A DNA stretch of 64,000 nucleotides from the NCBI GenBank assembly GCA_010672925.1, contig JAAHFP010000002.1, forward strand, positions 367,244-431,243. The letters are read 5' to 3'. Within the stretch, counting starts at the first letter, position 1. Each line of letters begins with the position of its first letter. This document shows, one piece after another, positions 9,523-37,529 of this stretch. The translations under genes were made by a program, and so were the position numbers. Under the pieces are notes generated by a model that was not told where the DNA came from, made no database searches, and saw nothing but the letters and a program-made list of their open reading frames with translations. The DNA is from Symploca sp. SIO1C2 (GTDB lineage: Bacteria; Cyanobacteriota; Cyanobacteriia; Cyanobacteriales; Coleofasciculaceae).

Positions 9523-10319
9523 AAGAAAATTCTCATTTTTTTGTAACTTTTTTAGGTGATTATTACAGTCTATATTCCACTTTTGCAACTGTCATAAGTG
9601 ATAATTTTTAATAAAGTATAATAAATAACAATATTAACTTAATTTAAATTTAAGAACCAAAATAATAAAAAATTGTGTCAATACATAGTACTGTATTTTT
9701 ATCGTCTTACATTATTCCGTATTCTACTTATAGAGTAGGTTTCATCTGTTATATTTGATACAAACGTTATTATTTCAATTCTTAATTCTGTATCAATTTC
9801 TCAATAATCAAGGAAAAAATCGGGACAAATGAATTTTCATCGGCTAACATAAGCAGTTAGTTACGCAAAATACTAAACTCTAATTGCACAAAATCTTATA
9901 CTCCGTTGTGACTTGATAGTGATTAATATGAACATAAGCAGTTTTAGACCCTGGCTATGCCTGTGAGAGCAGATTTAATAACTCTACGACGTGCAAGTAA
10001 TGCCAGAAGCCGTGACCAAGGTGTTGGGATTTTCAACAGAGGTAATTTTGTTGCTTCCTACTTTTGAGGGATTACTTTTCTTAACCCTTTTATGATTTAA
10101 CCTCTTGCCCAAACCACAGAAACCATACTGCTTCCACCATTAAATTTTCCGAAACGGAGTTAGGCCAAGAAATACCCACACAGTCTAGTGTGACAATTTC
10201 AGTTTTTTTAGTGACGACCTAGGAACTTCTCTCAGGGCAAAAGTCGTCAATTTCAATAATTTCCTGGCATCTACATCTAACAGGTGCATTTACCAACCTG
10301 TAGTCGATGGAAAGCCAAC
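9523..10319. other. AT-rich intergenic region 5' of the giant gene
   Basis: About 800 bp without a supported gene. A 36-codon ATG ORF at 9957-10067 has no ribosome site and no recognisable product. The region presumably contains the promoter and a long 5' leader for the giant gene. No riboswitch or operator was recognised. Confidence 0.5.
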
Positions 10320-22300: not shown

Positions 22301-24014
22301 TGCTACCAACGCGGTCATTGCTGATGCTCAAGGGATTGGCACTATTACCGACAATGATGGCCCCCCCAATCTTTCTATTGATGATGTCACGGTGGATGAA
22401 GGCGCTGGTACTGCTACCTTTACGGTAACTCTCGATGCCGCTACTACCCAGGATGTCACGGTAGATTTTGCTACTACTGCGGGTACGGCTGTGGCTCCCG
22501 ATGACTTTACTGCTACGAATGGCACTTTGACTATTGCCGCTGGACAAACTACTGGTACGATCACAGTCAATATCGCTGATGATGCTATTGATGAGCTGGA
22601 TGAGACCTTTACCTTAGACCTGAGCAATGCTACCAATGCGGTGATTGCTGATGCTCAAGGAATTGGAACCATTACCGACAATGATGCTGCTCCCAATATC
22701 TCCATTGATGATGTGACAGTGGATGAAACTGCGGGTACTGCAACCTTTACCGTCAGTCTTGATGCTGCTAGCGGACAGGATGTCACGGTAGACTTTACCA
22801 CTAACGATGGTACAGCAGTTGCCCCCGGTGACTTTACTGCTACAAATGGCACCTTGACCATTGCCGCTGGACAAACCACTGGCACGATCACAGTGGATAT
22901 CATTGATGATGGTATTGATGAAGCTGATGAGACCTTTACCGTAGACCTCAGTAATGCTACGAATGCCACTATTGCTGATGCTCAAGGGGTAGGCACTATC
23001 GCTGAGAATACCACTCCTCTGAGTCTGAACAAGACCCTAGATGATGTTATCTTCATTGAAGGGAATGCCGGTGACGATGCTCAACTGCTATTTACCCTTG
23101 ATGAAAGTAACGCCTTTTTTACTAATGAGATTGGGGTATTTATCATTGATGATGACCAAGGTACAGTTAATGGGGTTGCTCCAGGTTCCGCCAACTATCT
23201 AGAAACTGTCCTCGAAAACGGACAAGTAATTCTCTCAGCCCTCGGTGGTAATGAGCTTACTGGTACAGATACCAATCGTCAGTTAGGTTTTGAAGCTGGC
23301 GATCGCTTAGGATTCTACCTAGTGCAAAATGATACCACCGATAATGTCTTGGATGATTTGGCAGGAGGTTCCACCGATACCAATGTCTTCTTCACCTTCC
23401 CCTCTGCTAATTCCGATAACTTCGACCATTTGCAGCTGTCGATGGACGATGACACTATCACCTTAAATTGGGAAGATGCTCTTAATGGGGGAGACCAAGA
23501 CTTTGATGACGTGGTGCTGACAGTTCAACTAACTGATGCTGCTCCTCCTTTAGGAACAGAACTTCAAGGAGATGAGCAGGGAGAACTTATCGATTTGCGG
23601 GATGAGCTAACCGGCTTAATTGCTACTGACTTTGTTACCGCAGAGGATGCTGATTTTGACAATTCCTTTGGCTTCTATGCAGTGGATGACGCCAGTGGTA
23701 GCATCAATGGTATCACTCCAGATAACGCAATTTATGCCGCCTTAGCTGTTAGTAATCGGGTAGATTTAACTGCTGGGTTACCTGGTGGTAGTTTGTTAGC
23801 ACCGTTCTTTATTGCAGATGGCACTGCTGATGAATTCTTGATCTCGAATGCTAGTAATCAACAGGGTCAACTACCCCAAGCTTACTTTAGTTTCCTAGGA
23901 GCTAACCCCGACGGTCGTGATCACATTGCCCGACTAGGGGACAATACCTTCGGTTTTGAAGACAATACTGACTTTGACTACAACGATTTAATCGTACAAG
24001 TTGATTTCACCTAA
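10320..24014 (+). CDS. Giant DUF4347 / Calx-beta repeat / DUF4114 protein
   Basis: About 4,564 residues from the ATG at 10320 (MNNFNSSTLS); the track start at 10284 is a GTG 12 codons earlier. The first 200 residues form a DUF4347 domain: LVVIDPRVEAYQML, LHIVCHGAPGTLHLGD, FFYACNLA, TGAQIAASANKIG. One divergent Calx-beta-like unit follows, then 36 well-conserved units of about 109 residues (DVTVDEAAGTATFTVSL ... DETFTVDL ... GTITDND). The last 420 residues carry two DUF4114-like modules (NWEDALNGGDQDFDDVV and FEDNTDFDYNDLIVQVDF). Asp/Glu-rich Calx-beta loops imply Ca2+ binding. DUF4347 is common at the N-terminus of huge secreted cyanobacterial adhesins; no Sec signal is seen, so type I or other export is inferred. 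No RTX GGxGxDxxx nonapeptides. It is probably a surface or extracellular adhesive fibre. Confidence 0.85.
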   Translation: MNNFNSSTLSKLVSGEDNNDISVFYQKKPSFSTDKNAAMLVVIDPRVEAYQMLAEGVHQGANVLILDPSQDGIEQITQTLAGYPTSTSLHIVCHGAPGTLHLGDTFLNGANLEQYRQQLQTWEVAEIFFYACNLAAETIPRSQSFLSRFHQLTGAQIAASANKIGNALRGGCWYLEHQIGQIAGELAFESAVMQAYPGVLPIIVGPSNLITSEDGTATGTFGVVLSDVPTDPVLVLINGDASEGTPDQTFLLFDDTNWNIPQIVTVTGVDDAEVDGDITYNLNITPISGDPNFRNAEVIQVTNLDDDVLPNLSISDVTVDEAAGTATFDVTLSQASGEDVTVDFNTVAGTADDTTDFTGASGTLTIAAGATTGSITVNINDDTLNELTENFTVELSNATNATIADGQGVGTITDNDPLPNVSINDVTVNEGAGTATFTVSLDAASGQDVTVDFTTTDVTAINPDDYTGTNGTLTIAAGETTGTITVNIADDNLNELPEEFTVDLTGATNATILQGIGTGTITDNDQPPNVSVGDVTVDEAAGVANFTISLDVASGQDVTVDFATVAGTAISPDDFTDTTGTATIAAGQTSVIVSVPIINDTLNEADETFSVSLTNATNANLTEAQGVGTITDDDALPNLFIDDVTINEGGAATFTVSLSQASGQNVSVDFAAIAGTADDLSDFIATSSTLTIAAGDTTGTITINTIDDALNELPENFTVELSNATNATITDAQGIGTITDDDAAPNLSINDVMVNEGAGTATFTVSLDAASGQDVTVDFTTNDFTAINPDDYTGANGTLTIAAGDTTGTITVNIADDTLDEGDETFTVDLTNATNAAIADNQGAGTITDNDLAPALSIDDITVDEATGIATFTVSLDQASAQDVMVDFTTNAGTAITPDDFTDSPGTLTIAAGQTSATISVPITNDLLNEGDETFTVNLTNPVNATISDPQGIATITDDDALPNLSINDVTVNEGDGTATFTVSLDAVSGQNVTVDFATLAGTADDLSDFIATSSTLTIAAGDTTGTITVNLLDDALNEPIENFTVELSNATNANIADAQGIGIINDDDVAPELSIDDVTVNEGAGTATFTVTLDAASGQDVTVDFTTNDGSAINPDDFTGTNGTLTIAAGDTTGTITVNIADDALDEGDEDFTVELVSATNATIGADNEGTGTITDNDLPPNLSIDDVTVSEDGGTATFTVSLDQVSAEDVTVDFTTNDGSAVNPDDFTATTGTVTIAAGQTSATISVPIISDTLSETDETFTVDLSNAVNANILDPQGVGTITDNNQPPNLSIDDVAVDENAGTATFTVSLDRASGQDITVDFATLAGTALDTDDFTGTSGTLTILAGDTTGTITVNITDDTLNEPIEDFTVELSNATNATIADAQGLGTITDDDAAPNLSINDVTVNEGAGTATFTVSLDAASGQDVTVNFTTNDGIAINPDDYTGNNGALTIAAGDTTGTITVDIADDALDEGNETFTVDLVSATNATILDNQGIGTITDNDLPPVLSIDDVTVDEAAGVVNFTVSLDQVSAQDVTVDFATLAGTAVNPDDFTDTTGTLTITAGQTSATIAVPITNDLLNEGDETFSVNLTNAVNATIGDPQGVATITDDDTPPNLSIDDVTVDEAAGTATFTVSLDAATGQDVTVDFATVAGTALEIDDFSGTNGTVTILAGDTTGTITVDINNDILDEPNETFTVELSNATNANIADAQGLGTITDDDLAPGVSINDVTVNEGAGTATFVVSLDAASAQDVTIDFATNDGTAINPDDYTGGNGTLTIAAGDTTGTITVDIADDAIDELDETFTVDLISATNATITDDQGVGTITDNDLAPNLSIDDVMVSEDGGTATFTVTLDQASAQDVTVDFTTNNGSAVDPDDFTGTGGTLTITAGQTSATISVPIISDTLSEVDETFTVNLSNAVNANILDPQGVGTITDNNLPPNLSIDDVIVDEGAGTATFTVSLDRASGQDVTLDFATVAGTALDIDDFTGTSGTITILAGDTTGTITVNIVDDALDEPIENFTVELSNATNAIIADAQGLGTITDNDDAPNLSIDDVTVNEGAGTATFTVTLDAASAQDITVDFATADDTAINPDDYAGTNGTLTIAAGETSGTFTVDIADDALDEVDETFTVDLTNATNATIADAQGIGTITDNDLAPNVSIDDITVDEAAGFATFTISLDAASAQDVTVDFATAIGTAVNPDDFTDTTGTVTITAGQTSAIVSVPITNDLLNEVDETFSVNLTNAVNATIVDAQGVGTITDDDALPNLSIDDVTVDEAAGTATFTVSLDAASGQNVTVDFATLAGTAEDFIDFLSTNGTLTIAAGDTTGTITVNILDDALNEPIENFTVELSNATNANIADAQGLGTITDDDVAPEVSINDVTVNEGAGTATFVVSLNQASGQDITVDFTTNDGTAINPDDFTGTNGTVTIAAGDTAAMITVDIADDAIDELDENFTVDLTNATNATIADDQGTGTIIDNDLPPNVSINDVMVSEDGGAAIFTVSLDQVSAQDVTVDFATAAGTAINPDDFTDTTGTVTIAAGQTSATISIPIISDTIDEIDEMFTVNLSNAVNANITDPQGVGTITDNNVPPNLSIDNVTVDEAAGTATFTVSLDQTSGQNITVDFATVAGTATETADFTANNGTLTILAGETTGTITVDIIDDALDELNETFTVELSNATNANIVDAEGLGTITDDDAAPNLSINDLTVNEGAGTATFTVTLDAASGQDVTVNFTTNDDTAVNPDDFTGNNGTLTIAAGETTGTITVDIVDDAIDEVDETFTVDITSATNATITDNQGIGTITDNDLAPNVSIDDVTVDEAAGVATFTISLDGASGEDVTVDFATAVGTAIAPDDFTDTTGTVTIAAGQTSAIVSVAIANDTLNEADETFTVNLSNAVNATIVDPTGIGTITDDDAEPTLSIDNVTVDEAAGTATFTVSLNAASGQDVTVDFATLAGTALDTDDFTGNSGTLTILAGDTTGTITVDIIDDALNESNETFTVELSNATNATIADAQGLGTITDDDAAPNLSINDVTVNEGAGTATFTVTLDAASGQDVTVNFTTSDGTAVNPDDYTGTNGSVTIAAGQTTGTITVDIADDAIDEVDETFNVDITSATNATITDNQGVGTITDNDLPPNISINDVMVSEDAGTAIFTVSLDQASSQDVTVDFATTGGSAVDPDDFTGTTGTVTIAAGQTSATISIPIISDNLDEVDETFTVDLTNAVNGNILDPQGVGTITDNNLPPNLSIDNVTVDEAAGTATFTVSLDQTSGQDITVDFATVAGTADATSDFTGDSGTLTILAGATTGTITVDIIDDALDEQNETFTIELSNATNAVIADAQGIGTITDNDEAPNLSIDDVTVNEGAGTATFTVSLDAASGQDVTVNFATNDGTAINPDDYTGNSGTLTIAAGETTGTVTVNIADDAIDEVDETFTVDLSNATNATILDAQGVGTITDNDLPPNLSIGDVTVDEATGVANFTISLDQASSQDVTVDFATAIGTAVTPDDFTDTTGSVTIAAGQTSAIVSVAITNDTLNEADETFTVNLTNAVNATILDAQGVGTITDDDALPNLSIDDVTVDEAAGTATFTVSLDAASGQDVTVDFATVAGTAEDLNDFISTNSTLTIAAGATTATITVNIIDDTVDEALETFTVELSNATNATIADAQGMGTIIDNDAAPNLSINDVTFNEGAGTATFIVSLDAASGQDVTVDFITNDGTAINPDDYTGTNGTVTIAAGQTTGTITVDIADDAIDELDETFTVDLISATNATIADNQGIGTITDNDLPPNLSINDVTVDEAGGIATFTVTLDAASGQDVTVDFATAIGTAVTPDDFTDTTGTVTIAAGQTSAIISVPIINDLLIEGDETFTVNLSNAVNATITDPQGIGTIIDDEIPSNISIDDVTVDESAGTATFTVTLDRASGQDVTVDFTTNDGTAVAPDDFTANNGTLTIAAGQTTGTITVDIIDDAINETDETFTVDLTNATNAVIADAQGIGTITDNDGPPNLSIDDVTVDEGAGTATFTVTLDAATTQDVTVDFATTAGTAVAPDDFTATNGTLTIAAGQTTGTITVNIADDAIDELDETFTLDLSNATNAVIADAQGIGTITDNDAAPNISIDDVTVDETAGTATFTVSLDAASGQDVTVDFTTNDGTAVAPGDFTATNGTLTIAAGQTTGTITVDIIDDGIDEADETFTVDLSNATNATIADAQGVGTIAENTTPLSLNKTLDDVIFIEGNAGDDAQLLFTLDESNAFFTNEIGVFIIDDDQGTVNGVAPGSANYLETVLENGQVILSALGGNELTGTDTNRQLGFEAGDRLGFYLVQNDTTDNVLDDLAGGSTDTNVFFTFPSANSDNFDHLQLSMDDDTITLNWEDALNGGDQDFDDVVLTVQLTDAAPPLGTELQGDEQGELIDLRDELTGLIATDFVTAEDADFDNSFGFYAVDDASGSINGITPDNAIYAALAVSNRVDLTAGLPGGSLLAPFFIADGTADEFLISNASNQQGQLPQAYFSFLGANPDGRDHIARLGDNTFGFEDNTDFDYNDLIVQVDFT
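11243..23008 (+). repeat. 36 tandem Calx-beta coding repeats (about 327 bp each) in higher-order array
   Basis: Units are about 109 codons. Reading unit by unit, types A (FAT.AGTA, ending DDDA-APN), B (FTTNDGTAINPDDYTG, IADDA.DE.DETF) and C (DDFTDTTGT.TIAAGQTS, TNDLLNE) cycle ABC through units 1-33. Three near-identical units that fit none of these types follow (34-36, APDDFTANNGTLTIAAGQTTG). Subtypes give 6- and 12-unit super-periods. The long antisense ORFs in the track across this region are by-products of the repeat. Confidence 0.9.
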
Positions 24015-25941: not shown

Positions 25942-26910
25942 GTCGCAATTCCTCTTAATCCCTATCAGGGATTGAAACGCAAGATTTCATAATCAGGCCA
26001 GTAATCAACCAGTTGTCGCAATTCCTCTTAATCCCTATCAGGGATTGAAACACCATCTTTGATGATAAGCCACAGTATCAGCTGGCCAAGTCGCAATTCC
26101 TCTTAATCCCTATCAGGGATTGAAACTCCCAATGATCCGGACTATATGTATGGCTATAAGTCGCAATTCCTCTTAATCCCTATCAGGGATTGAAACTTAA
26201 TAATAGTTCCGATGAGGATGATGATGGTCTTGAGTCGCAATTCCTCTTAATCCCTATCAGGGATTGAAACGCTCCTCTGTGTGAGCGATCGCTTGTGGTT
26301 GAAGTCGCAATTCCTCTTAATCCCTATCAGGGATTGAAACGAGTATGTAGGTGCTAACCAAATGAAGGTTAACCTTAGTCGCAATTCCTCTTAATCCCTA
26401 TCAGGGATTGAAACATAAGGGGGAGCAAAGATCTTAGGCTTAGAATTTTGTCGCAATTCCTCTTAATCCCTATCAGGGATTGAAACATTATGGTAGAAGA
26501 CAAGACAAGAAAACGCAACCCCGTCGCAATTCCTCTTAATCCCTATCAGGGATTGAAACGTAGATGCAATCTTGCCAGACCCCCCTGAGTTGGTCGCAAT
26601 TCCTCTTAATCCCTATCAGGGATTGAAACGATAGTACATTGCAAACGGAGCAAGAAAACGCCCGCTGGTCGCAATTCCTCTTAATCCCTATCAGGGATTG
26701 AAACGAATAATGAATCTTGCTGCATAATCCCGATGTGTGGTCGCAATTCCTCTTAATCCCTATCAGGGATTGAAACAAGGAGTGGAATTGTCCTAGTGAT
26801 GTAAGACCAGTCGCAATTCCTCTTAATCCCTATCAGGGATTGAAACTGACGAATGCCGCCGCCGGGACGCCCGAACCCAAGTCGCAATTCCTCTTAATCC
26901 CTACCAGGGA
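25942..26910 (+). CRISPR. CRISPR array 1, 14 repeats, 13 spacers
   Basis: 37-bp repeats beginning GTCGCAATTCCTCTTAA and ending CCCTATCAGGGATTGAAAC, with 13 spacers of 33-38 bp. The leader is on the left. The last repeat (26881) is cut after 30 bp and has the TACC loop typical of array 2. The 3' hairpin AATCCCT/AGGGATT and the ATTGAAAC handle fit Cas6 processing by the adjacent I-D system. Confidence 0.97.
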
Positions 26911-26917
26911 ATAATCA

Positions 26918-27160
26918 TCAGTAACCCATTTCCTGCAAGGTTTTGAGGTCTTCTTGAAATTCCGCTACATCGTAGTGAACACAGATGTCTCGCTCCGCCA
27001 GCAATGTTTGAAACTGCATTCGATGCATCTCCAGCAATTCGCTGGCTTTTCCCAGACTAATTTTGTCTTGCTCAAAGAGCATAATTACAACTTCTATCAA
27101 AAATTCACGCTCTGACAGACCGCTTACTTTGACAATATCATCGGAAATAACTAGACTCAT
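26918..27160 (-). CDS. UPF0175 family protein (orphan antitoxin-like)
   Basis: 80 residues. LSEREFLIEVVIMLFEQDKI, SLGKASELLEMHRMQF and the acidic tail match UPF0175, a helix-turn-helix family usually placed upstream of a DUF3368/PIN toxin. No such toxin is adjacent. The gene lies between the broken last repeat of array 1 (its stop is 8 bp away) and the leader of array 2, so it probably arrived by an insertion or rearrangement that truncated array 1. Confidence 0.7.
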   Translation of the reverse strand: MSLVISDDIVKVSGLSEREFLIEVVIMLFEQDKISLGKASELLEMHRMQFQTLLAERDICVHYDVAEFQEDLKTLQEMGY

Positions 27161-27232
27161 GGCAATTCCTCCGACTTGGCTTCTCTTATCGTAGCAATCA
27201 GATTTTCAGGTTTCTCATCGAAATTGGTGGAT

Positions 27233-27481
27233 GGCGCTAAGGGATAGGTGTTTTTTTGAGTGAGTATAAAAAAATGGCTGAATCCCTTTTTGTACAAGAG
27301 TTTGAGGTGCGTTGCTCAAAAATTTCTTTAGCGCTTTTGGTGAAATGCTTATGGTGAGGGGGTTTGAGGGTATTTTCTAGATTATGGTCTTGCTTAACCA
27401 GAGGCTGAAATGCTATATTTTGATTCATTAGCGCCATCGTACCTTGAAAACTACATACAGCAAGGGTTTCTGGAAGCCGCC
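27233..27481 (+). promoter_or_regulatory. CRISPR leader 2
   Basis: Near-identical to leader 1 over 250 bp, including the final 80 bp. The inverted repeat here is GCGCTAAGG / CTTTAGCGC (27234 and 27326), with one mismatch. Confidence 0.8.
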
Positions 27482-28105
27482 GTCGCAATTGCAGCTAATC
27501 CCTACCAGGGATTGAAACAAAAAATAAGGCCAAATCACATCTTAACTGGACAAGGTCGCAATTGCAGCTAATCCCTACCAGGGATTGAAACTTGCAAGTG
27601 GCAATTCTGAGACTAGGCCAGCCAATGTCGCAATTGCAGCTAATCCCTACCAGGGATTGAAACCGCCACCTTCAGCTGGCGGACTGCTCCCCAACGTTCG
27701 TCGCAATTGCAGCTAATCCCTACCAGGGATTGAAACGAGGAAATGGAGAGGCGATCGCGAACCGGGACATGGTCGCAATTGCAGCTAATCCCTACCAGGG
27801 ATTGAAACGTGAGTGAGTAGAACCATTCATATCCACCTTGTAAGGTCGCAATTGCAGCTAATCCCTACCAGGGATTGAAACCACCTAGAAATTTCCACGC
27901 CTCATTAAGAGCATCGAGTCGCAATTGCAGCTAATCCCTACCAGGGATTGAAACGCAAGAGCCACTTCCAGGTTTTCTATGGTTTGTATTTGGGTCGCAA
28001 TTGCAGCTAATCCCTATCAGGGATTGAAACTTTACCACTACCGATGGTATTCCAGCAGCTAATATCAAGTCGCAATTGCACTTAATCCCTACCGGGGACT
28101 AAAAC
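27482..28105 (+). CRISPR. CRISPR array 2, 9 repeats, 8 spacers
   Basis: 37-bp repeats beginning GTCGCAATTGCAGCTAA and ending CCCTACCAGGGATTGAAAC; spacers are 35-39 bp. Repeat 8 has TATC in the loop and repeat 9 (28069) is degenerate, as expected at the leader-distal end. The eighth spacer reads in frame as a Calx-beta-like peptide. Confidence 0.97.
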
Positions 28106-28372
28106 AGAGCACTTTCTCAGGGAGCTATCAAGGAGCGATCGCAAATAGAATGCAAAAACAATACCTTACTTGGGTTGTGTTGGGTTTTGTTGCCTCAACC
28201 CAGCCTACGATTCCACTGTTTGGATGACAGATCACAGGCTAGAAGCCTGTTCCACAAGAAGCTGATGATAGAATTAGATGCTTTTACCAGATGTATCTTT
28301 GTTTACCACCTAAAACCTAAAACCTAAAACCTAAAACCTACCACCTACCACCTACCACCTAACACCTACCAC
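28106..28372. repeat. Intergenic repeats, including heptamer tract CCTAAAA/CCTACCA
   Basis: 28304-28372 is a run of CCTAAAA and CCTACCA heptamers that ends at the stop of the WYL gene. Upstream lie GTTGGGTTTTG...CAACCCAG and AGGCTAGAAGCCT hairpins. No gene. Confidence 0.7.
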
Positions 28373-29227
28373 CTAATCCATATAAAGATCGCACATTGAT
28401 TTGATTTCTTCTTTGATACGCGATCGCACAGCTTCTGGAGAAACGATTACACAATTTTTCCCATACCGCAAGACTTCTCTAGTAAACCAAAAAGTATTCG
28501 CAATCCGCCGCACCACTCTTTTTACTTGCGGTGCTCCTGCTAACCAGTCATTGCTGATATCTTCAGTTTTGGTTTTGTAGGCAAAAGCTAAAGTGCCAAA
28601 CAGGTGCATTTCCACTTCTATTTGAGCCAAGTTGGAGCGCCAAGAACCTTTGACGGGAGTAATGGCAGCTTCTGAAATCCGGTCTAAACGTAAGCACCAG
28701 TTGTGGTTTAGTTCCAGTAAATCCTGATTTCCTTCTGTTTCCTCACACCAACAGTCGAGATAATGCCGCTTCTCGTGAAAGTTAATTTGAGCATGACGGA
28801 TCGTAAAGTGCCAAGGTAGATCCGCTGCATCCCGGTAGTCAAGCTGGAAGGGTTGATTACGGCGGATGTAACGCTCTAATTCTAGTCGCCAGGAGGGAGG
28901 GGGATTGGCAACAAATCCTTCGATTTCTCGGCGTAGGGGAATAGATAGTTCACTTCGTTCTAAGAGTAGCTTAGCCATTTCTAATGCTAAGCCTAATTCT
29001 CCGTCATCAGTTAAGGCTTTATGAGCTCTTATCAGAGTATTGATACGGGTTTGACTCCAGTCATTGTTGGGAAGTACCAGAAGCTTGCGACGAGCAATCC
29101 CTTCTACCAATTTAGAAATATTGGGACGATCACCCCAAGTCATACCTAATTCAAGGGCAATTGCCATTAGCTCGGCTTTGTCTAGTTCTGATATAGATAG
29201 GGTAATGGATTGACCTTTACGACTCAC
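28373..29227 (-). CDS. WYL-domain transcriptional regulator of the CRISPR locus
   Basis: No ATG is available near the start: the track start (29239) is TTG, and a GTG at 29227 follows a G-rich stretch at a suitable distance, giving 284 residues. The N-terminus (SITLSISELDKAELMAIALE, then ISKLVEGIARRKL) is a short DNA-binding module. The C-terminal half has a WYL-type ligand-binding fold (LRLDRISEAAITPV; VVRRIANTFWFTREVLRYG). The architecture resembles sll7009, the WYL regulator beside the I-D system of Synechocystis 6803, which is reported to repress crRNA accumulation. It is divergent from cas3 across about 110 bp with palindromic sites. Confidence 0.75.
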   Translation of the reverse strand: MSRKGQSITLSISELDKAELMAIALELGMTWGDRPNISKLVEGIARRKLLVLPNNDWSQTRINTLIRAHKALTDDGELGLALEMAKLLLERSELSIPLRREIEGFVANPPPSWRLELERYIRRNQPFQLDYRDAADLPWHFTIRHAQINFHEKRHYLDCWCEETEGNQDLLELNHNWCLRLDRISEAAITPVKGSWRSNLAQIEVEMHLFGTLAFAYKTKTEDISNDWLAGAPQVKRVVRRIANTFWFTREVLRYGKNCVIVSPEAVRSRIKEEIKSMCDLYMD

Positions 29228-29244
29228 AGGAACCCCCAAAAGTA

Positions 29245-29315: not shown

Positions 29316-29344
29316 TTACGGACACTATTTACTACTATGTCCGA
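29316..29344. promoter_or_regulatory. Second operator-like site across the cas3 start codon
   Basis: The half-site TACGGACA recurs at 29317 and TGTCCG at 29338, with 13 bp between them instead of 3. The right half overlaps the cas3 ATG. Together with the 29245 site this suggests cooperative repression. Confidence 0.45.
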
Positions 29345-31769
29345 ATACCAGATTACCCTGAAACCTATTTATTCTTGCCCTGCGGAGGAATTGCCGCCAG
29401 GGGTGAAGCTACCAGAAGGTTGGTCATTGTCTTGGCATCAAGCCGCCACTTATGAAGCATTGCAAGACCCGAACATTGATGTGGTGTTCAATACAGCGAT
29501 GACGGGGGATGGGAAAAGCTTAGCAGCTCAGCTAAGAGTCTTACAAGGAGAAGGTTGTGCTCTTTGTCTCTATCCTACCAATGAACTGGCTCGTGACCAG
29601 GAAATGCAGACAAGGAGGTATATCGAACAATTCCAGCCACCCCATGAACCTCGTGTGGTGAGGCTCTCAGGAGCAGAGTTGGAGATTTATGCCGAAAATG
29701 AGGGATTGAGGAAAGGCGCTGCGATCGCTTCTCGTACAGCCCAGGCAGAAATATTACTGACTAATCCTGATATTTTCCACTATTTACATCGAGGAGCCTA
29801 TCTATTTAAAGGGGATAGTCCCGATAAATTGTGGGGGAAGATTGATAAGGATTTTGACTTATTTGTTTTTGATGAATTTCACGTCTTTGAGCCTCCCCAA
29901 ATTGCCGGTGTGATGAACACAATGTTGCTGATTCGCTGTACCAATCGGCGCAAGAAGTTTCTCTTTCTTTCCGCTACCCCTGACCTACAGTTAATTGAGC
30001 GATTGGAAAAGGCAGGATTTCGAGTTAAGCAAATTAACCCCCTAGAGCAACAAAAGTATAAGTTTCCCGATACTGTAGCCGAATCTCAACAATTAGCTCT
30101 CGATAAATGGCGACAGGTATCACAAGCAATTACCCTTAATTTTATTCCCCTTGAACCCTCTTTTCAAGCAGCGGAAACTTGGCTTAAAGAAAACAGTGAT
30201 TTAATTGTGGCTCAGTTTCAGCAATATCCAGGAAGTAAGGGAGCAATTATTCTCAACTCCATTGCGGCAGTAAAACGGCTAGTGCTGTTTTTGCGGGAAG
30301 CATTGCAGCCCTTGGGTTTGACAGTAGGGGAGAATACCGGGTTATCGGGCAGAGGAGAAAAAGAGCGATCGCTTTTAGCAGATTTAGTTATCGGTACTAG
30401 CACTATTGATGTGGGTGTTGATTTCAAGATTAATTTTCTGCTGTTTGAATCCTCTGATGCCGGTAATTTTATTCAACGGTTGGGAAGATTAGGAAGGCAT
30501 GATGGTTATGAACAGGATGGGGAAAAAGTTAGTTTTGATAAGTTCACAGCCTATGCTCTCGTAGCCAACTTTTTGGTCGAACGTTTGTTTAAGAGAAGGC
30601 AGGAGGCAGGAGGCAGGAGGCAGGAGGTAAGAGGTAGGGAGAAGGAGCAGGTGGTAGGTGGTAGGTGGCAGAACCCACCCCTAACCCCTCCAAGGAGGGG
30701 GACAAGAGGTAGGGGGAAGGATATAGAAGGTAGGGTGCAGGAGGCAGGAGGTAGTACCGATGAAACAAACTTTACCACAATAGATGAAAATCCATCTCGA
30801 CCCGTCTCCGCGTCTCCGCGTCCCCGCGTCTCCCTATCACCACATTCCCCAGTCTCTGTATTAGAATCGGGGGGAATTTATGAGCGTCCCTTTTTCCACC
30901 AGACAATTAGTGATAATTATCGAAGAATTAATGATTTTAGAGGCTACTATTCCCGTTGGGGTGCAGTACAGTCATTGCGGCTGTGTTATCAATTAAGCGA
31001 TCGCACAATTAAGCAGCAATATGCTCAAAGTCGGGAGAAATTTAGCCAAGCTTGTGAGGATGTATTTAATACTAACTTAAAACGGGTAGGAGGTAGGGTT
31101 AGTGGCTGGAGAAGAGATTGGCAACAACTTTCTGGTAAGGATAAGGGTAATCCAATTGCCGAAGATGCTTCTAGCTTCCGTGGTGTCAGCATTCTGCAAT
31201 GTGGACTCTATGATCTTACAGAAGAAAACGAGTGCGATCGCTTTAAAACTTACGACTTGCCAGGAATTCTCAGTAACCTAGAGATTGAACTGTGGACAAA
31301 GGCGGCATTTATACGGACACTTAAGGAAACTGCTGCACGGCAAGGAATGCCGATTCCCAAGGGACGTTTTGAGCATTGTCTAGCATTGATGAAGTTGCGG
31401 ACATACCGAGAGAAGCGGTTGAATTGGAAGTTTACTTATCCTGGTAATTTGCAACCCATTGCCGATGCTTGGCAGGTTCAGGTATTAATGGGAATTCAAG
31501 TGTGGCAACCAGATAACCCCTGGATTGGTGAAATTAATCAGCGTTTGAGACTGCAAGGATTAGTTGGTTATGTGCTGCGGCGTCCGGTGGTTGAAGTACG
31601 GAGGCGGTTACAGTTACCAATGCATTTTCAGATTTATCCCATTAGTGATGACTACAGCATACATGAGGCAACTGCTCCCTATGCGATCGCGTTTAGTCAA
31701 TCGGCACTGTTGTTAGATACGTTGGCGTACAGGTTGAAGAGTGAAGGAGGTGAATCGTGGATTGTTTAG
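29337..31769 (+). CDS. cas3: Type I-D Cas3 helicase (Cas3')
   Basis: 810 residues. Superfamily 2 helicase motifs are present: motif I AMTGDGKS, LYPTNELARDQ (Ia), DEFH (motif II), LFLSATPD (III), and GTSTIDVGVDF plus IQRLGRLGRH (V/VI). There is no HD nuclease domain; in type I-D that domain sits in Cas10d, matching this operon. Cas3' unwinds target DNA after Cascade binding. Residues about 420-505 are a low-complexity insert made from intergenic repeats, making the protein longer than I would expect for I-D Cas3'. The ATG overlaps the operator half-site. It is the first gene of the cas operon. Confidence 0.9.
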   Translation: MSEYQITLKPIYSCPAEELPPGVKLPEGWSLSWHQAATYEALQDPNIDVVFNTAMTGDGKSLAAQLRVLQGEGCALCLYPTNELARDQEMQTRRYIEQFQPPHEPRVVRLSGAELEIYAENEGLRKGAAIASRTAQAEILLTNPDIFHYLHRGAYLFKGDSPDKLWGKIDKDFDLFVFDEFHVFEPPQIAGVMNTMLLIRCTNRRKKFLFLSATPDLQLIERLEKAGFRVKQINPLEQQKYKFPDTVAESQQLALDKWRQVSQAITLNFIPLEPSFQAAETWLKENSDLIVAQFQQYPGSKGAIILNSIAAVKRLVLFLREALQPLGLTVGENTGLSGRGEKERSLLADLVIGTSTIDVGVDFKINFLLFESSDAGNFIQRLGRLGRHDGYEQDGEKVSFDKFTAYALVANFLVERLFKRRQEAGGRRQEVRGREKEQVVGGRWQNPPLTPPRRGTRGRGKDIEGRVQEAGGSTDETNFTTIDENPSRPVSASPRPRVSLSPHSPVSVLESGGIYERPFFHQTISDNYRRINDFRGYYSRWGAVQSLRLCYQLSDRTIKQQYAQSREKFSQACEDVFNTNLKRVGGRVSGWRRDWQQLSGKDKGNPIAEDASSFRGVSILQCGLYDLTEENECDRFKTYDLPGILSNLEIELWTKAAFIRTLKETAARQGMPIPKGRFEHCLALMKLRTYREKRLNWKFTYPGNLQPIADAWQVQVLMGIQVWQPDNPWIGEINQRLRLQGLVGYVLRRPVVEVRRRLQLPMHFQIYPISDDYSIHEATAPYAIAFSQSALLLDTLAYRLKSEGGESWIV
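30594..30850 (+). repeat. Dispersed repeats inserted in frame within cas3
   Basis: GGCAGGAGGCAGG tandem units, then CCCACCCCTAACCCCTCCAA (the repeat also found at 35.76, 36.40, 38.23 and 61.29 kb), then TCTCCGCG octamers as near 39.53 and 44.54 kb. All read open in the cas3 frame, between helicase motif VI and the C-terminal region. Confidence 0.8.
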
Positions 31770-31770
31770 G

Positions 31771-31792
31771 GTTTCAATCCCTGATAGGGATT
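31771..31792 (-). CRISPR. Orphan CRISPR half-repeat after cas3
   Basis: The 22-bp reverse complement of the repeat 3' half (AATCCCTATCAGG...GAAAC) begins one base after the cas3 stop. It is exact for arrays 1 and 3. There is no second repeat or spacer. Confidence 0.8.
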
Positions 31793-32113
31793 CTTGGAGT
31801 TAGACGGAGGAGTAAACAGCTTACGCCATTAAGTTCAGACGTAAGTATTCTCAACCCCCAAAAGCTATAAAGCAAGATTTGATAGTAGATGGCTGGTTAA
31901 GCACTTAACAAAAGGACAAACCTAAAGCAATCAATCCTAAACAAGCTTCAGCAATCAATCCTAAACAAGCTTCCCTCTCCTTTCTTCAAACTCAACAATG
32001 CCTCAATATTTTAGAGATTAATAATGAACGAGCAACAACTATTAGCAAGAATTACAGTTAAGACGAAAATCTTTTTAGCTTTTGCAATATTCTCAACAAG
32101 CATCGTAACCCAC

Positions 32114-32281
32114 CGGTCGTTTTAACGACCGGCTAATAGCTCAAGTCCACTTAAGTGGACTAATAACCTTAAGCGTCTACAAAGAATTAGTGAAAGTTTT
32201 TTCAACAAAATTTTTGCTTACCTGTTTATCCAGTCGTCTTTAGACGACTTTAGCTATAAGCCTGGGGTTTAAACCCCAGGC
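32114..32281. repeat. Cluster of four short perfect hairpins
   Basis: CCGGTCGTTTTAACGACCGG (32114), AGTCCACTTAAGTGGACT (32143), GTCGTCTTTAGACGAC (32234) and CCTGGGGTTTAAACCCCAGG (32262). The stems differ, but all are centred on TTTA or TTAA and two are followed by TAGCT. The rest of 31793-32359 has no supported gene. Confidence 0.6.
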
Positions 32282-32359
32282 GGACTTGGCAACTGTCGCA
32301 GGCTCTCAATAGAGACTGGTGATATCTATGGGAGATCAAAATTTTCCTATTAAATCAAA

Positions 32360-32806
32360 ATGACTTACAAAACACCAACAATTGAAGAATTCGGAGAACT
32401 AGCTCAACAACTACCCGAAAAAATACCCTACTTAAAAATGTTAGTCCTATTTGGTTCTAGAGCCACAGGTAAAACTCATGCTAATAGTGATTGGGATTTT
32501 GCGGCACTCTACGATGAACAACTTAGAGAGGAATCTTGTAGAGGTTTTGCCTGGTTTGAGGTTCCTGGACTTGTTGGTGAAATTTTTAACATCAACAGCG
32601 ACAAGATTGATATGGTTGAACTTAATCGTGGCACACCATTGCTGAATTATCATGTAGCGCGTGATGGGAAATTATTATACGAAAAAGAACCTGGAGAGTT
32701 TCTGAATTTTCAACGCCAAGCTTGGAAAACTTATGCCGACACCGCTAAATTCCGTAAGGCTCAACAGCGGAGCATTGAACTATGGCTACAAAGGTGGGGT
32801 GTATGA
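32360..32806 (+). CDS. MNT-type nucleotidyltransferase domain protein
   Basis: 148 residues. LVLFGSRATGKTHANSDWDF contains the GS...DxD signature of minimal nucleotidyltransferases (GS at about residue 34, DWD at about 46-48). The C-terminal half (YADTAKFRKAQQRSIELWLQ) is helical. Family knowledge: MNT proteins pair with HEPN toxins and AMPylate or otherwise modify them, or act as adenylyltransferases in other defence modules. Here the next gene overlaps by ATGA but does not look like a typical HEPN RxxxxH protein. It lies within the cas operon, between cas3 and cas10d, in the same orientation. Confidence 0.75.
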   Translation: MTYKTPTIEEFGELAQQLPEKIPYLKMLVLFGSRATGKTHANSDWDFAALYDEQLREESCRGFAWFEVPGLVGEIFNINSDKIDMVELNRGTPLLNYHVARDGKLLYEKEPGEFLNFQRQAWKTYADTAKFRKAQQRSIELWLQRWGV

Positions 32807-33378
32807 CAGCTCAATTGAACGGTGAAGAAATTATACGTCATATTCAACAAACTTATGAAGATTTTCTAGCAAAACCTGAAAATAGAGAGTTTGTTAATCG
32901 TTTAAGTCTACTAGTCCAAAAGTATCAGCAAATTGCTGCGATGGAAGCTGATGCTGAAACCAATCCTTTGGTAGGTTTGGAGCGCGAAAACCTACTCATG
33001 GAAGCTGAATCTGAATTAGAGGAAATCTCAATTCAAATTAAAGATGCTTGTGAATTAAATCTATCACCGTCTGAGGGAGAACTATTCGAGGGATATACTC
33101 AAGGTGAAATTGAGGAAATACAAGAACTTATGCAGCAATGGAGTCCAGCAACCTATGCTGATGTTGCAGCTAGCATTCTTGATCATGCTTTTAGGAAAGA
33201 TTTTGAACCACTGGATTATCTACGGAGAGCATCAAGGTTTGACAAACCTAAAGCAATCCGCATTCCACGCTTAGGTTCTAGTGAAATGGGTACAGTAAGA
33301 TGGGAGATTAAAAGTACTGGAGAATATCTTATAGAAACACCAGAAGGCAAAATTGTCACCTATGGCTTCAATGATTAA
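32803..33378 (+). CDS. Unknown protein coupled to the MNT gene
   Basis: 191 residues starting MTAQLNGEEIIRHIQ at the ATGA overlap with the MNT stop; the track start at 32782 would extend into that gene. The first 110 residues are predicted helical or coiled-coil and acidic. The C-terminus is beta-rich and basic (FDKPKAIRIPRLGSSEMGTV). No HEPN RxxxxH motif is obvious. Overlap with the MNT gene argues for a joint function. Not recognised. Confidence 0.6.
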   Translation: MTAQLNGEEIIRHIQQTYEDFLAKPENREFVNRLSLLVQKYQQIAAMEADAETNPLVGLERENLLMEAESELEEISIQIKDACELNLSPSEGELFEGYTQGEIEEIQELMQQWSPATYADVAASILDHAFRKDFEPLDYLRRASRFDKPKAIRIPRLGSSEMGTVRWEIKSTGEYLIETPEGKIVTYGFND

Positions 33379-33404
33379 AAAATACTATTGATAAGATTAC
33401 TACT

Positions 33405-33818
33405 ATGGAAAGAGACCAAGCTGCACTTTTTGAACGGAACCGACTTGCTGAATTGAAAAATCGTCTTTTTGCTCAGGAGAGAGCCATGAAAGATGAACGC
33501 CGCAAGTTATGGGAGATAGAAAAAGACTCAGAGGAAGCATATACGGTTTGGAGTAAATTGGAAATTTTATCCACCTATATCGCCGGATATGTTAGTCAGA
33601 TTGTGACTTCAGGTCACACCCGTCAAGAACCTCGTGATGTCATTAACCATTTACATCAGCTGAGTATTTTCGATTTTGACTGTATTGTTGATTGGTATCG
33701 CTCTTCGGAAGCAGAATATCCCAAAATAAAGCAATTTTTTGAACTTTTAGACTATATCCGTCTTCTCACTCTGGAGTATGTCGAACGATATCAGTTACTG
33801 GAAATGCAGCAAAAATAA
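33405..33818 (+). CDS. Unknown helical protein inside the cas operon
   Basis: 137 residues, almost all helical. The N-terminus is a charged coiled coil (LAELKNRLFAQERAMKDERR) and the remainder has an aromatic-rich bundle (FDFDCIVDWYRSSEAEYPKI). No catalytic motif. It lies 26 bp after the preceding unknown gene and 12 bp before the cas10d ATG, so it is cotranscribed with both. It could be a small complex subunit or partner of the MNT pair; both are guesses. Confidence 0.55.
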   Translation: MERDQAALFERNRLAELKNRLFAQERAMKDERRKLWEIEKDSEEAYTVWSKLEILSTYIAGYVSQIVTSGHTRQEPRDVINHLHQLSIFDFDCIVDWYRSSEAEYPKIKQFFELLDYIRLLTLEYVERYQLLEMQQK

Positions 33819-33830
33819 TTGGGGAAGACA

Positions 33831-36800
33831 ATGGCTAAAAAACCTAAGGATGTTGAAGAGTTACAACAACTTTCTCTATTTGACACCGAGATAACCTTAA
33901 ACTCAGAACAAGATGATGACTGGTTAGAGGATGAAGATTTCGGCTTTGATGGGGAACCTTCGGATCGTACTATCGAAACCTCTCAAGCCTTACTCACTCT
34001 CCAACTGCTGCAAGAAGCTATTGAAGCACAAAATCCTGATGATCCAGTAATGCGGGATTTCGGAACATATGTTTTGCCGAAATTGCTGCGATTGGCTATT
34101 GGGGTAACGGCTAAAGGAGGTAAGTTTTTTGATAACATTGACAAAGAACGAGAAGCAGCATGGAAAATCTATTTGTTGATAATCGCTAAATTATTAAATG
34201 GCAATTACTTCAGATTATTTGATTTTTATTTTCGTACCTTGATTCAGCAACACCGGAAACAGAAGGTTCGACGGGATAATGCCGCTGATCAATCCCTGAA
34301 TACTCACTTACTCAATGGCTTATTTCCCGCTAATTTAATTGAGAAACGGTTGGAAAAGCTGAATACCACTATCAAGCGAGTGGTACGAGAAAGGGAACGA
34401 CGCTTGGTGATGGCGGCATTTATTCTCCATGATTTTGAAAAGTTTCCTGAGCCTGATGTACCAGCAAATTGTCGCAAATTATCCATAGCGGAGCATCGCC
34501 AAATTATTGAACGTCTGGTTCATCAGCTAAGATTAGATTCTTTTATTAATCCTGAAGAACCAGAAGCTTATCAAGAGTATATTGATGATTTACTCTGCAT
34601 GGCGTATAATGCCCAAAGACGCTGGGATACTAACTGGAACTTTTCCGAATTTGGACTTAATGTTACCTTAAGCGATCGCGCCCTTAGACAACTTTCCGAT
34701 TTAACCTGTCTGGCGGACTCCCTAGCATCTATAGTTAAGCATCCCCAAGATGCTCAAAATCAAAGACTTAACGACATTATCCACAGTTTAAGCGATGGTA
34801 ACTTGAAGTTTACCTATCACAGTATTGCGGAAAATCGAGGTGTACTGACTAATGTGGTAAATAATGCCTTAATGCAGGCTCATACCGCAGTTAATACAGA
34901 AGCATCTATATATTATGAGCCACTGCTGTATTTACCAACTGGAGTAATCTATCTCGCAACTCGTGATGCACCCCCTATCTCAACGGCAGATTTAACAGAC
35001 AGAGTAGTTACTCAAATCCAATCCCTCTGTCGGCAACAATTACGCTTGAGACAAACCGGTTTTAGCAGAGATGGTAAGGGGATGAAATATGCTGATTATT
35101 ACGAGTTGTTCTTTGATGATGTCGGGTTAATGCAAGTGGCTTTAGATGCTACCTTGCGTATCCTCAATCCCAATAAAACCTCGGTGGCTAAAAGTCGTAG
35201 CGATAATCTGGTCAAGTTTCAGCAAAAAAATGTCCTCTCTGCTGATTATGACTTTATCTTTAAGGATGATATCCGCATTGATCAGCTAGCGGAATTTGGT
35301 GATGTGGTTAGCCGCAAGATTTGGGGGGAGAGAGTTAATCGTATTGCTGTAGCCTGTAAGCAGAATCAGCAGTTACCGAAACTCCCTTATCTGGATTTAG
35401 TGCAGAAAGTTGCTGAATATTGGAACCTCTCGGAATACTTACCCCCAATCCGAGAGATTCAGCGCATTAATGAAAGCCTTAAGGAAAATCAGCTTAAGGG
35501 AAATACAGGAGGAGTGCCTTACGAATGGTACTTTTTAGCCGCCAAGTATCTGGAAAATCATCCTGGGATAGAAGATATTCGTCCCATCGGTGAAAAATTG
35601 ATTACTTATCTTACCAGTCTCACTCAACCGATTACTGCTGAGTACCAGTTACCAGATGGTTGGGATGATTTGAGGCTATGGGTAAAGCAGGTAGTAATGT
35701 TACCGGTGATATCAAGTCCGGTAGAATACTTACACTTTGGTGCAAATAAGGCAGAACCCACCCCTAACCCCTCCAAGGAGGGGGACCGGAGGCAGAAGGC
35801 AGAAGGGAAGGAAGAAGGTTGCAAGGTAGAAGGAGATGATAAGTGTTTAGCCGGTATTCGTAATCAAGGGCAATCTTCTGCAAAGCAGGCGGATATCTTC
35901 CTTAAAGAATTAGCCAATTACCAGCTTGCGAAGAAACCGGGTAGAGGCAGACAGTTAATTTGTTCAATTTCCCATTCTCCCTACACCGTTACTGAACAGA
36001 TGGAGTCAGCGGTTTTGTTTACTCCCCAGGTGTATACCAACAAACAAATGCTAGGAGGTTCTAACGCCAAGCGCAATATTTCCAGTATTGCCGGTTTAGA
36101 GATGATGCTGCGGCAAATTTTGATGAATCAAACCCAAGCCGTTGGCAAGCGATTTGAGGATGGTAAGTACCGCTACCTCTATTTTTATCCCACCTACTAC
36201 TTCACCCCAGAGACAAACAAGTTTCTGCAAAAAGCCTACAGTAGGATTGCTCAAACTCGTTTTGATACCAGTATCCGCAACCATTTTATCAAAAAGAACT
36301 TCCAAGCAGACTTCCAACGCGATCGCTACCAAAGTGTGGATACCTTTCTTATATCAAGTCCGGTTGAATACTTACACTCGGGTAACAAGAAGGCAGAACC
36401 CACCCCTAACCCCTCCAAGGAGGGGGACCGGAGGCAGAGGGCAGAAAGGAATTCTCACTGTTTATCCGAACTTGATACGATTGCAGAAAATCCTAAACCG
36501 GGCAAAGACCGAACCTTTAAGTTGAGCTATCCCGAAGACCAACCGATGACATTTTACTTTATGGCGATGCCACCGGGAAGGGATAGTACGGATACGGAAT
36601 CCTGGGTAATGCCGAGTTGGTTAGCTTTTGCCTTCCCCATGATTCTGGATGTAAAAACCGTAGTTTCCGAGTCGCCGATTCCCCCCTTTAATGATGGTGC
36701 CGAATTTGAAGAAAGCGTTTTTCTCGATAGTGCCCCTTATGCCTTCCGGATGCTCACCAAACGCGATCGCTTCCGTCTTGATTATATCCTGGATGGTTGG

Positions 36801-37529
36801 AAAGAAAACGATATTCAGTATCCCGCCCCTTTAAATGTCCTCACTGCTGCTTATGCCATTCACCTTGATGTTAATGCCAAACAAGGTAAATCTGGTTATG
36901 ACCCTCATTGGGGTAAATTTACCGAACTTGCCAGAGATTTTGCCACCAGTCCTCTCTACGTTTTCAGTTACCTCAACCGTTGGGTTCGCCATCAAGGTGT
37001 GGAAACAGCCTGGATTGAGAAAATTCGACTCTATGCTTATCAATTTTACCCTTGTTTTGACCCTTACACCAAATACAATCGAGACGCGGAGGCATTAATA
37101 GTGGAAGCAGAATCAAGTTTAAATCATCCCCAAAAACTGACGGAACTATATCGTAAGTTCTACCGAGCCAATAAGCGATACAATCCTAAAGCAAATGCTG
37201 TCTTAAAACCCATTGATATTGCTGCCGAAACCATCCTTAAAGCAGAATCTACAGTTTTCCAAGGTGAAGCCTTAGTTGCAGCCGTTGCCGCCGAAATTTT
37301 CAAGCTGATGGAACGAGTTCATGCTTCTACTGCTGAGGGACGCTGGATATTTAGTAAACGAGAAGTAGAAAGGGAGGCAATTTTAGACTTTGCTCGGTAT
37401 TTTGTTGTGGAAGTATTTGAAAAGTCTTTTGCAGGCGATCGCGCTCGTTTAGCCGGACGACAAATTAACCTTATTCGTGATACTTGTGAGTTTTTGTATC
37501 GCCTTGAAGATGACAAGGAGAATGGCTAA
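33831..37529 (+). CDS. cas10d: Cas10d (Csc3), type I-D large subunit with HD nuclease
   Basis: 1,232 residues from the ATG at 33831, preceded by GGGGAAG; the track start is an upstream TTG. An HD motif (AAFILHDFEKFPEP, about residues 197-210) marks the nuclease domain that in type I-D resides here rather than in Cas3. No GGDD palm motif is seen, as expected for I-D. Cas10d recognises the PAM and forms the large subunit of the I-D Cascade. Two MITE copies are translated in frame at about residues 627-678 and 841-882 (both beginning ISSPVEYLH and containing EPTPNPSKEGDRRQ), adding about 95 residues. The flanking protein stays intact, so it may still be functional. Confidence 0.9.
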   Translation: MAKKPKDVEELQQLSLFDTEITLNSEQDDDWLEDEDFGFDGEPSDRTIETSQALLTLQLLQEAIEAQNPDDPVMRDFGTYVLPKLLRLAIGVTAKGGKFFDNIDKEREAAWKIYLLIIAKLLNGNYFRLFDFYFRTLIQQHRKQKVRRDNAADQSLNTHLLNGLFPANLIEKRLEKLNTTIKRVVRERERRLVMAAFILHDFEKFPEPDVPANCRKLSIAEHRQIIERLVHQLRLDSFINPEEPEAYQEYIDDLLCMAYNAQRRWDTNWNFSEFGLNVTLSDRALRQLSDLTCLADSLASIVKHPQDAQNQRLNDIIHSLSDGNLKFTYHSIAENRGVLTNVVNNALMQAHTAVNTEASIYYEPLLYLPTGVIYLATRDAPPISTADLTDRVVTQIQSLCRQQLRLRQTGFSRDGKGMKYADYYELFFDDVGLMQVALDATLRILNPNKTSVAKSRSDNLVKFQQKNVLSADYDFIFKDDIRIDQLAEFGDVVSRKIWGERVNRIAVACKQNQQLPKLPYLDLVQKVAEYWNLSEYLPPIREIQRINESLKENQLKGNTGGVPYEWYFLAAKYLENHPGIEDIRPIGEKLITYLTSLTQPITAEYQLPDGWDDLRLWVKQVVMLPVISSPVEYLHFGANKAEPTPNPSKEGDRRQKAEGKEEGCKVEGDDKCLAGIRNQGQSSAKQADIFLKELANYQLAKKPGRGRQLICSISHSPYTVTEQMESAVLFTPQVYTNKQMLGGSNAKRNISSIAGLEMMLRQILMNQTQAVGKRFEDGKYRYLYFYPTYYFTPETNKFLQKAYSRIAQTRFDTSIRNHFIKKNFQADFQRDRYQSVDTFLISSPVEYLHSGNKKAEPTPNPSKEGDRRQRAERNSHCLSELDTIAENPKPGKDRTFKLSYPEDQPMTFYFMAMPPGRDSTDTESWVMPSWLAFAFPMILDVKTVVSESPIPPFNDGAEFEESVFLDSAPYAFRMLTKRDRFRLDYILDGWKENDIQYPAPLNVLTAAYAIHLDVNAKQGKSGYDPHWGKFTELARDFATSPLYVFSYLNRWVRHQGVETAWIEKIRLYAYQFYPCFDPYTKYNRDAEALIVEAESSLNHPQKLTELYRKFYRANKRYNPKANAVLKPIDIAAETILKAESTVFQGEALVAAVAAEIFKLMERVHASTAEGRWIFSKREVEREAILDFARYFVVEVFEKSFAGDRARLAGRQINLIRDTCEFLYRLEDDKENG
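35709..35864 (+). mobile_element. MITE-like element, family C, copy 3, within cas10d
   Basis: Left terminal repeat ATATCAAGTCCGGTAGAATA, core with CCCACCCCTAACCCCTCC and GGCAGAAGGCAGAAGG, right end GATAAGTGTTTAGCCGG. It is open in the cas10d frame. The right end has drifted more than the left. Confidence 0.8.
36351..36478 (+). mobile_element. MITE-like element, family C, copy 4, within cas10d
   Basis: Left terminal repeat ATATCAAGTCCGGTTGAATA and right end TTTATCCGAACTTGATAC, its imperfect reverse complement. It is read in the same frame as copy 3, giving nearly the same peptide. Confidence 0.85.

Follow-up and report, generated by a model that had tools for sequence, protein, structure and literature searches.

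The locus and its three unassigned genes

In a 64,000-nucleotide stretch of the Symploca sp. SIO1C2 genome (the window), a complete type I-D CRISPR-Cas locus carries three genes between cas3 and cas10d, which raises the question of whether these genes form one functional unit and what they do inside a cas operon. The initial annotation treated them as a single cassette under cas control, either toxin-antitoxin-like or signalling, that might guard the CRISPR locus. The locus comprises a WYL regulator, cas3, the slot genes, cas10d, csc2, csc1, cas6, cas4 and cas1, and the I-D type of Cas3, Cas10d, Csc2, Csc1, Cas6, Cas4 and Cas1 was confirmed with NCBIfam models. Three intact plus-strand ORFs fill the interval downstream of the cas3 stop codon at position 31769 (Table 1). 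The gene arrangement read from the letters alone was borne out, as the coordinates agree with an ATGA overlap between genes 1 and 2, and gene 3, modelled as all-helical, ends 12 bp before the cas10d ATG at 33831. The contig measures 768 kb and genome completeness is 97.9%, so that an assembly join is unlikely. Conserved homologues of genes 2 and 3 occur across Cyanobacteria, which sets both apart from chance ORFs.

Table 1. Features in and around the cas3-cas10d interval (window coordinates)
Feature	Position	Strand	Description and basis
WYL regulator	28373..29239	-	Divergent to cas3; PADLOC WYL, E 9e-14
cas3 of type I-D	29337..31769	+	Preceding gene; TIGR03158, 405 bits
Pseudo-repeat 1	31771..31792	-	Reversed, exact 22-nt copy of the 3' part of the array repeat (repeat search)
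Conserved pseudo-spacer segment	31793..31845	-	Plus strand reads ACGGAG..AGCTTACGCCATTAAGTTCAGACGTA; identified against the DNA after cas3 in other I-D operons
Pseudo-repeat 2, approximate position	31846..31870	-	Degenerate in the window, stem lost
Palindrome cluster of a multicopy intergenic repeat	32110..32290	.	Between the CreA-like remnant and mntA
mntA (gene 1)	32360..32806	+	148 aa; Pol-beta/MNT nucleotidyltransferase, type VII antitoxin family; no hepT neighbour
Gene 2	32803..33378	+	191 aa; start codon overlaps the mntA stop in ATGA
Gene 2, N-terminal helical linker (residues 1-84)	32803..33054	+	Putative trimmed pre-toxin segment; G408 alignment and AlphaFold
Gene 2, C-terminal putative toxin domain (residues 85-191)	33055..33378	+	Alignment, RHS C-terminal homologues, Foldseek
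Gene 3, predicted helical immunity/antitoxin protein for gene 2	33405..33818	+	137 aa; adjacency to the gene-2 domain, six-helix model
cas10d/csc3	33819..37529	+	Next operon gene; TIGR03174, 1081 bits; ATG at 33831

The Cas10d sequence of the window contains repeat-derived in-frame insertions (SSPVEYLH..PTPNPSKEGDRRQ, present twice), as a result of which the protein is 1236 aa long and matches its profile in three separate pieces. Cas3 also contains such an insertion (RRQEAGGRRQEV..).

Gene 1 is an MntA antitoxin without a hepT neighbour

By its sequence, gene 1 belongs to MntA, the family of HepT-neutralising nucleotidyltransferases. It scored 81.9 bits against the NCBIfam equivalog NF047752 (MntA_antitoxin; cut-off 60), and its best solved relative is the MNT antitoxin of Aphanizomenon flos-aquae (PDB 7ae2_B, E 9.5e-44 over residues 3-148). 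The nucleotidyltransferase motif claimed earlier is indeed intact, as gene 1 carries GSRATGKTHANSDWD, corresponding to GSx10DxD, a motif that AMPylation has been shown to require in a Legionella relative (PMC11586414). The protein thus shares with the HepT-MntA type VII system (PDB 7ae2, 7ae6, 7ae9) its family, full-length similarity and the GSx10DxD motif, and the operon slot is shared as well, since it holds mntA-hepT beside cas10d in relatives. It differs in that the window has no adjacent HEPN toxin with an Rx4-6H motif and contains an unrelated putative toxin/immunity pair instead. Searches by tblastn and blastp of positions 31700-34300, covering gene 2 and its flanks, revealed no HEPN remnant (best E 0.04 to 0.06, short matches). 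In the window, hepT is therefore absent with no detectable remnant, and genes 2 and 3 stand in its position.

The cas3-cas10d interval is a recurrent landing site for toxin- and nuclease-like genes

MntA homologues were found in 56 and Cas10d in 101 of 390 genomes of the class (cyanobacterial). The interval was then read in 74 other I-D operons in which both cas3 and cas10d lay on the fetched stretch; the first 20 stretches were chosen by their MNT matches, but with the later batches added, the majority of the complete cas10d loci in the survey are covered. In this sample mntA occupies 33 of the 74 slots, and 32 of these 33 also hold a HEPN gene. The usual order, mntA-(ATGA)-hepT-cas10d, was seen in 32 of the 74 operons. 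The slot HEPN usually overlaps mntA and bears RNxLxH, and a representative matched the Aphanizomenon HEPN toxin 7ae9_A with an E-value of 1.7e-66. The only mntA-bearing operon among the 33 to lack HEPN belongs to G408, a genome of the same family as that of the window, where a YhcG gene follows mntA. MntA is therefore an ordinary resident of the slot, normally paired with hepT.

Other cargo is also frequent. YhcG/DUF1016 (PDDEXK) nucleases were found in 11 of the 74 operons, DUF5615 PIN-like genes with DUF433 partners in 12 and Uma2 in 7, these counts not being exclusive, since an operon can hold several of these families, also alongside MntA-HepT. Small toxin- or nuclease-like genes thus settle recurrently between cas3 and cas10d of type I-D operons, which makes the interval a hot spot. 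The combination of mntA, gene 2 and gene 3 occurs in none of the 74, same-family genomes included, and was found in a single genome only, an outcome that the initial annotation itself had named as speaking against a functional trio.

Genes 2 and 3 resemble a polymorphic toxin and its immunity protein

Gene 2 contains no HEPN motif, as had been noted, and neither gene 2 nor gene 3 showed significant similarity to a Pfam, NCBIfam, PADLOC or PHROGs family. Homologues of the C-terminal 105 residues of gene 2 were identified in 28 and those of gene 3 in 41 of the 390 cyanobacterial genomes. In the contexts read, the two adjoin in nearly all cassettes and usually form a stand-alone pair of approximately 105-118 and 130-148 aa. 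The neighbourhoods of these cassettes are varied, and none of the 20 contexts read contains I-D cas genes. Some gene-2 copies in other genomes carry stops. The three genes of the window are consequently not one cassette, as had been thought, since MntA belongs to the slot and the other two make up a pair of their own that is found elsewhere without cas genes. What stands of the toxin-antitoxin-like module proposed for this operon is its content, namely an MntA and a putative toxin/immunity pair, but not its unity as three genes. A further homologue of gene 3 is present in the Symploca genome itself (C185:14642-14965; L320:5628-6032, minus strand), solitary and with no gene-2 partner.

A scan of GTDB contigs with a single protein gave no matches, and a profile scan retrieved 64 loci. 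In Exilibacterium, a Thiotrichaceae MAG and another gammaproteobacterium (L217, L218 and L219), the gene-2 domain forms the C-terminal end of an RHS-repeat protein of 1752, 412 (the contig starts inside it) and 1753 aa, respectively. A gene-3 homologue lies directly downstream in all three loci, overlapping or adjacent (E 2e-9 to 3e-9), and another was detected in L220 (E 1e-13). A C-terminal toxin domain followed by an immunity gene is the standard layout of polymorphic toxins. When the whole of gene 2 is compared, its linker included, the closest homologue lies in G408 (residues 26-191, 52% identity over 167), and the counterpart of gene 3 there agrees with it at 57%. In G408 the gene-2 homologue makes up the tail of a longer ORF that has a hydrophobic, pre-toxin-like region (L294), and repeated 159-aa paralogues flank this tail in an arrangement that resembles arrays of orphan toxin cassettes. 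On the strength of the RHS-tip layout and the orphan tail of G408, gene 2 is a putative toxin domain and gene 3 its predicted immunity protein. Since the G408 homologue is the tail of a larger ORF, gene 2 of the window is best described as a putative trimmed polymorphic-toxin tail, and the pair was apparently captured from a bacterial-warfare toxin locus. Derivation of the gene-2 N-terminus from HepT was ruled out, as this segment aligns with the linker in the G408 tail.

Compared with RHS/YD-repeat polymorphic toxins, the window shares the C-terminal domain of gene 2 and a gene-3 homologue, adjacent and in the same order. It differs in lacking the delivery part (RHS, secretion and pre-toxin regions); gene 2, of 191 aa with an 84-residue helical linker left, is not an exported multidomain effector, and the pair is located inside a cas operon. 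The plasmid and phage collections gave no gene-2 matches, and a search of IMG/VR with gene 2 gave only five short, weak ones, which were left out of the counts.

Structure prediction, which had been suggested together with profile searches for both genes, gave a lead to a toxin fold for gene 2 but no solved relative for gene 3. The AlphaFold model of gene 2 (pLDDT 94, pTM 0.67) has an N-terminus made entirely of helices and a C-terminal domain of helices and sheet. Gene 2 differs from a standard HepT in this predicted fold as well as in its lack of a HEPN motif, so that the objection foreseen in that respect falls away. The window retains each of the ten invariant positions of the family (W113, Y118, H128, L140, R141, A143, F146, L176, I184 and G188). 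The best Foldseek match was the CDI toxin 8ey4_A (probability 0.97, TM 0.62 to the target, E 0.45, not significant), and three of the next four were the colicin D tRNases 1tfo, 1v74 and 1tfk, the E-values ranging from 0.45 to 1.2 and likewise not significant. Because of these E-values the enzyme class is a lead only, the leading one being that gene 2 is probably a colicin D/CdiA-like RNase (tRNA nuclease). The invariant H128 is a candidate catalytic histidine for RNA or tRNA cleavage. Comparison of gene 2 with the colicin D and CdiA-CT tRNA nucleases (8ey4, 1tfo, 1v74) gives a weak predicted fold match (TM about 0.62 to the CDI toxin) and no significant sequence match, and gene 3 is unlike any solved immunity protein. 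A sequence search of the PDB with the gene-2 and gene-3 profiles produced no significant match, and the six-helix model of gene 3 (pLDDT 92.8) has no structural relative among solved PDB proteins.

A CreA/CreR-like element downstream of cas3

Many I-D operons contain, directly 3' of cas3, a CreA/CreR-like mini-CRISPR: two sequences that resemble the array repeat, in reversed orientation and with a distance of about 73 nt between them. The loci compared (L140-L159, L224-L283 and L313-L318) were analysed over the first ~250 nt after cas3. The pseudo-spacer, on the minus strand, starts after ATTGAAAC, and its seed matches a plus-strand site 46-113 nt past the second repeat that is accompanied by GTH, GTN/GTH being the published I-D PAM (PMC10212523). 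The mean number of seed matches was 9.53 of 11, versus 7.70 (SD 0.14) in 200 shuffled pairings, and the GTH PAM was present in 46 of 51 loci versus a shuffled mean of 12. Both a seed match and the PAM were found at 41 of the 51 loci, with 34 different seeds. At these 41 loci the match rate was 0.95-1.0 at positions 1-5, 0.27 at position 6, 0.7-1.0 at positions 7-11 and 0.29 at position 12. The mismatches at positions 6 and 12 fit the six-nucleotide periodicity of Cascade, and positions 1-5 and 7-11 are those of the CreA pairing rule in type I-B (PMC8501985). Since independently varying seeds keep matching, these comparisons speak strongly for a regulation guided by Cascade in other I-D operons.

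With CreTA/CreR (PMC8501985, PMC12737573), the related I-D operons share two repeat-like sequences around a pseudo-spacer, of which nucleotides 1-5 and 7-11 find their match close by, at a site that has the I-D PAM. The I-D element differs in its placement between cas3 and a slot for protein toxin-antitoxins or nucleases, and in its decay in the window. It could serve autoregulation of the downstream cas genes (CreR-like), toxin control (CreTA-like) or both. Its frequency is 32 of 37 among operons with MNT/HEPN, 9 of 17 among those that carry other nucleases and 7 of 20 where neither is present (Fisher p 2e-4, uncorrected for phylogeny). A CreA-like RNA aimed at the cas3 promoter was also considered and rejected, the matches being no better than shuffled ones (7.88 vs 7.82). 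The literature searched, within whose reach the original CreR paper did not fall, contained no type I-D case of CreTA/CreR. The abstract of that paper reportedly names types I-B, I-E and V-A.

In the window, pseudo-repeat 1, whose position is common to many I-D operons, is intact and the body of the pseudo-spacer is conserved, with one recognisable repeat in place of the two that define the element. No seed target (nucleotides 1-5 and 7-11) with a GTH PAM was found in the window for this pseudo-spacer, and none of the 21 spacers of the window arrays has a seed match with a PAM in the slot. The idea of an addiction module guarding the CRISPR locus thus draws indirect support from the toxin-antitoxin-rich slot and from the element in other genomes, but the window copy of that element is degenerate. 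RNA control seems to have been lost where hepT gave way to a pair with its own protein antitoxin, an order of events read from one genome.

The multicopy repeat that contributes the palindrome cluster upstream of mntA was found at 21 genome sites with at most one mismatch, and at none in the control. The perfect palindromes in 32110-32290 include GGTCGTTTTAACGACC, GTCCACTTAAGTGGAC and GCCTGGGGTTTAAACCCCAGGC.

Origin and possible role of the pair in the window

Taken together, the gene order and gene families of the window, the position of hepT in relatives and the toxin-tail architecture of relatives lead us to propose, with a probability of about two in three, that a captured polymorphic-toxin/immunity pair has taken the place of hepT and acts as a protein toxin-antitoxin module co-expressed with cas10d. 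The ancestor of the slot would have held the type VII pair mntA-hepT; hepT would then have disappeared, the incoming pair keeping the ATGA translational coupling to mntA and leaving MntA with no local HepT. Gene 3 would bind and block gene 2. Were the operon lost or shut off, for instance when a phage takes over the cell, the toxin, as the more stable partner, would be set free to cleave RNA and would halt growth, and such an arrest might both favour retention of the I-D locus, as an addiction module does, and provide abortive infection.

A broader and more tentative proposal, which we hold to be less probable than its contrary, is that the I-D cas3-cas10d interval serves as a dedicated slot for exchangeable toxins, over which a crRNA-like RNA exerts control by way of Cascade. 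Whenever Cascade is lost or inhibited, the resident toxin would then be freed, be it HepT, YhcG, PIN or another, and the slot of the window would have been re-loaded with a polymorphic-toxin/immunity pair bearing its own protein antitoxin, its RNA control decaying afterwards.

That the pair landed by chance, is tolerated as gene 3 neutralises gene 2 and plays no CRISPR role is the strongest alternative, although we consider it unlikely. It would account for the restriction of the trio to one genome, for the many unrelated contexts and occasional decayed copies of the gene 2/gene 3 pair, and for the degenerate state of the adjoining CreA-like element. Against such a neutral landing, all three frames are intact and tightly spaced, with the ATGA coupling, and other lineages have repeatedly gained toxin or nuclease modules in this slot, a pattern that suggests that such cargo is selected for.

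Two further alternatives assign a different partner to MntA, and both appear improbable to about the same degree. According to one, MntA would AMPylate gene 2 as it does HepT, so that genes 1 to 3 would make up one toxin with two antitoxins. The ATGA coupling of mntA to gene 2 fits this idea, as does the undecayed state of mntA despite the loss of hepT: 4 of 28 conserved positions are changed, which is not unusual when compared with the 0-6 changes in relatives that have a HEPN neighbour. The toxin/immunity pair occurs elsewhere without any MNT, however, and the predicted fold of gene 2 is unlike HEPN, whose active-site motif is absent. According to the other, MntA would be kept against a HepT encoded elsewhere and its neighbours would be irrelevant to it. 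A single distant HepT-like ORF is indeed present elsewhere in the genome (C235:19417-19494, MRNRLVHEYDD), but the similarity is low (E 0.006 over 26 residues), which makes it a distant HepT at best, and cross-neutralisation is not known. The remaining suggestion, an undescribed I-D accessory or second-messenger system in which the MNT would be the signal synthase and genes 2 and 3 the effector and regulator, is very improbable, as nothing beyond the position within the operon favours it, the MNT is a short, single-domain MntA and not a larger signalling nucleotidyltransferase, and toxin/immunity loci account for genes 2 and 3.

The preferred reading, a captured pair in the place of hepT, makes of the trio an orphan MntA and a captured toxin/immunity pair in a recurrent I-D toxin-antitoxin slot. 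It would mean that the tail of a warfare toxin, together with its immunity gene, can replace the toxin of a toxin-antitoxin system within a cas operon, a single locus joining type VII toxin-antitoxins, inter-bacterial polymorphic toxins and CRISPR maintenance. The survey also exposes, in dozens of I-D operons, a toxin slot and an adjoining crRNA-like element with a Cascade pairing signature, which together make the reason for toxin-antitoxin genes in CRISPR loci directly testable in type I-D.

Other features of the window

The window contains two CRISPR arrays (25942-28124) with 21 spacers, whose repeats differ slightly (CCTCTT and GCAGCT variants). Each array is preceded by a copy of a 296-nt leader, the leader copies being 92% identical. 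A 4576-aa ORF extends from 10284 to 24014 and contains tandem repeats that, by their appearance, resemble Calx-beta units.
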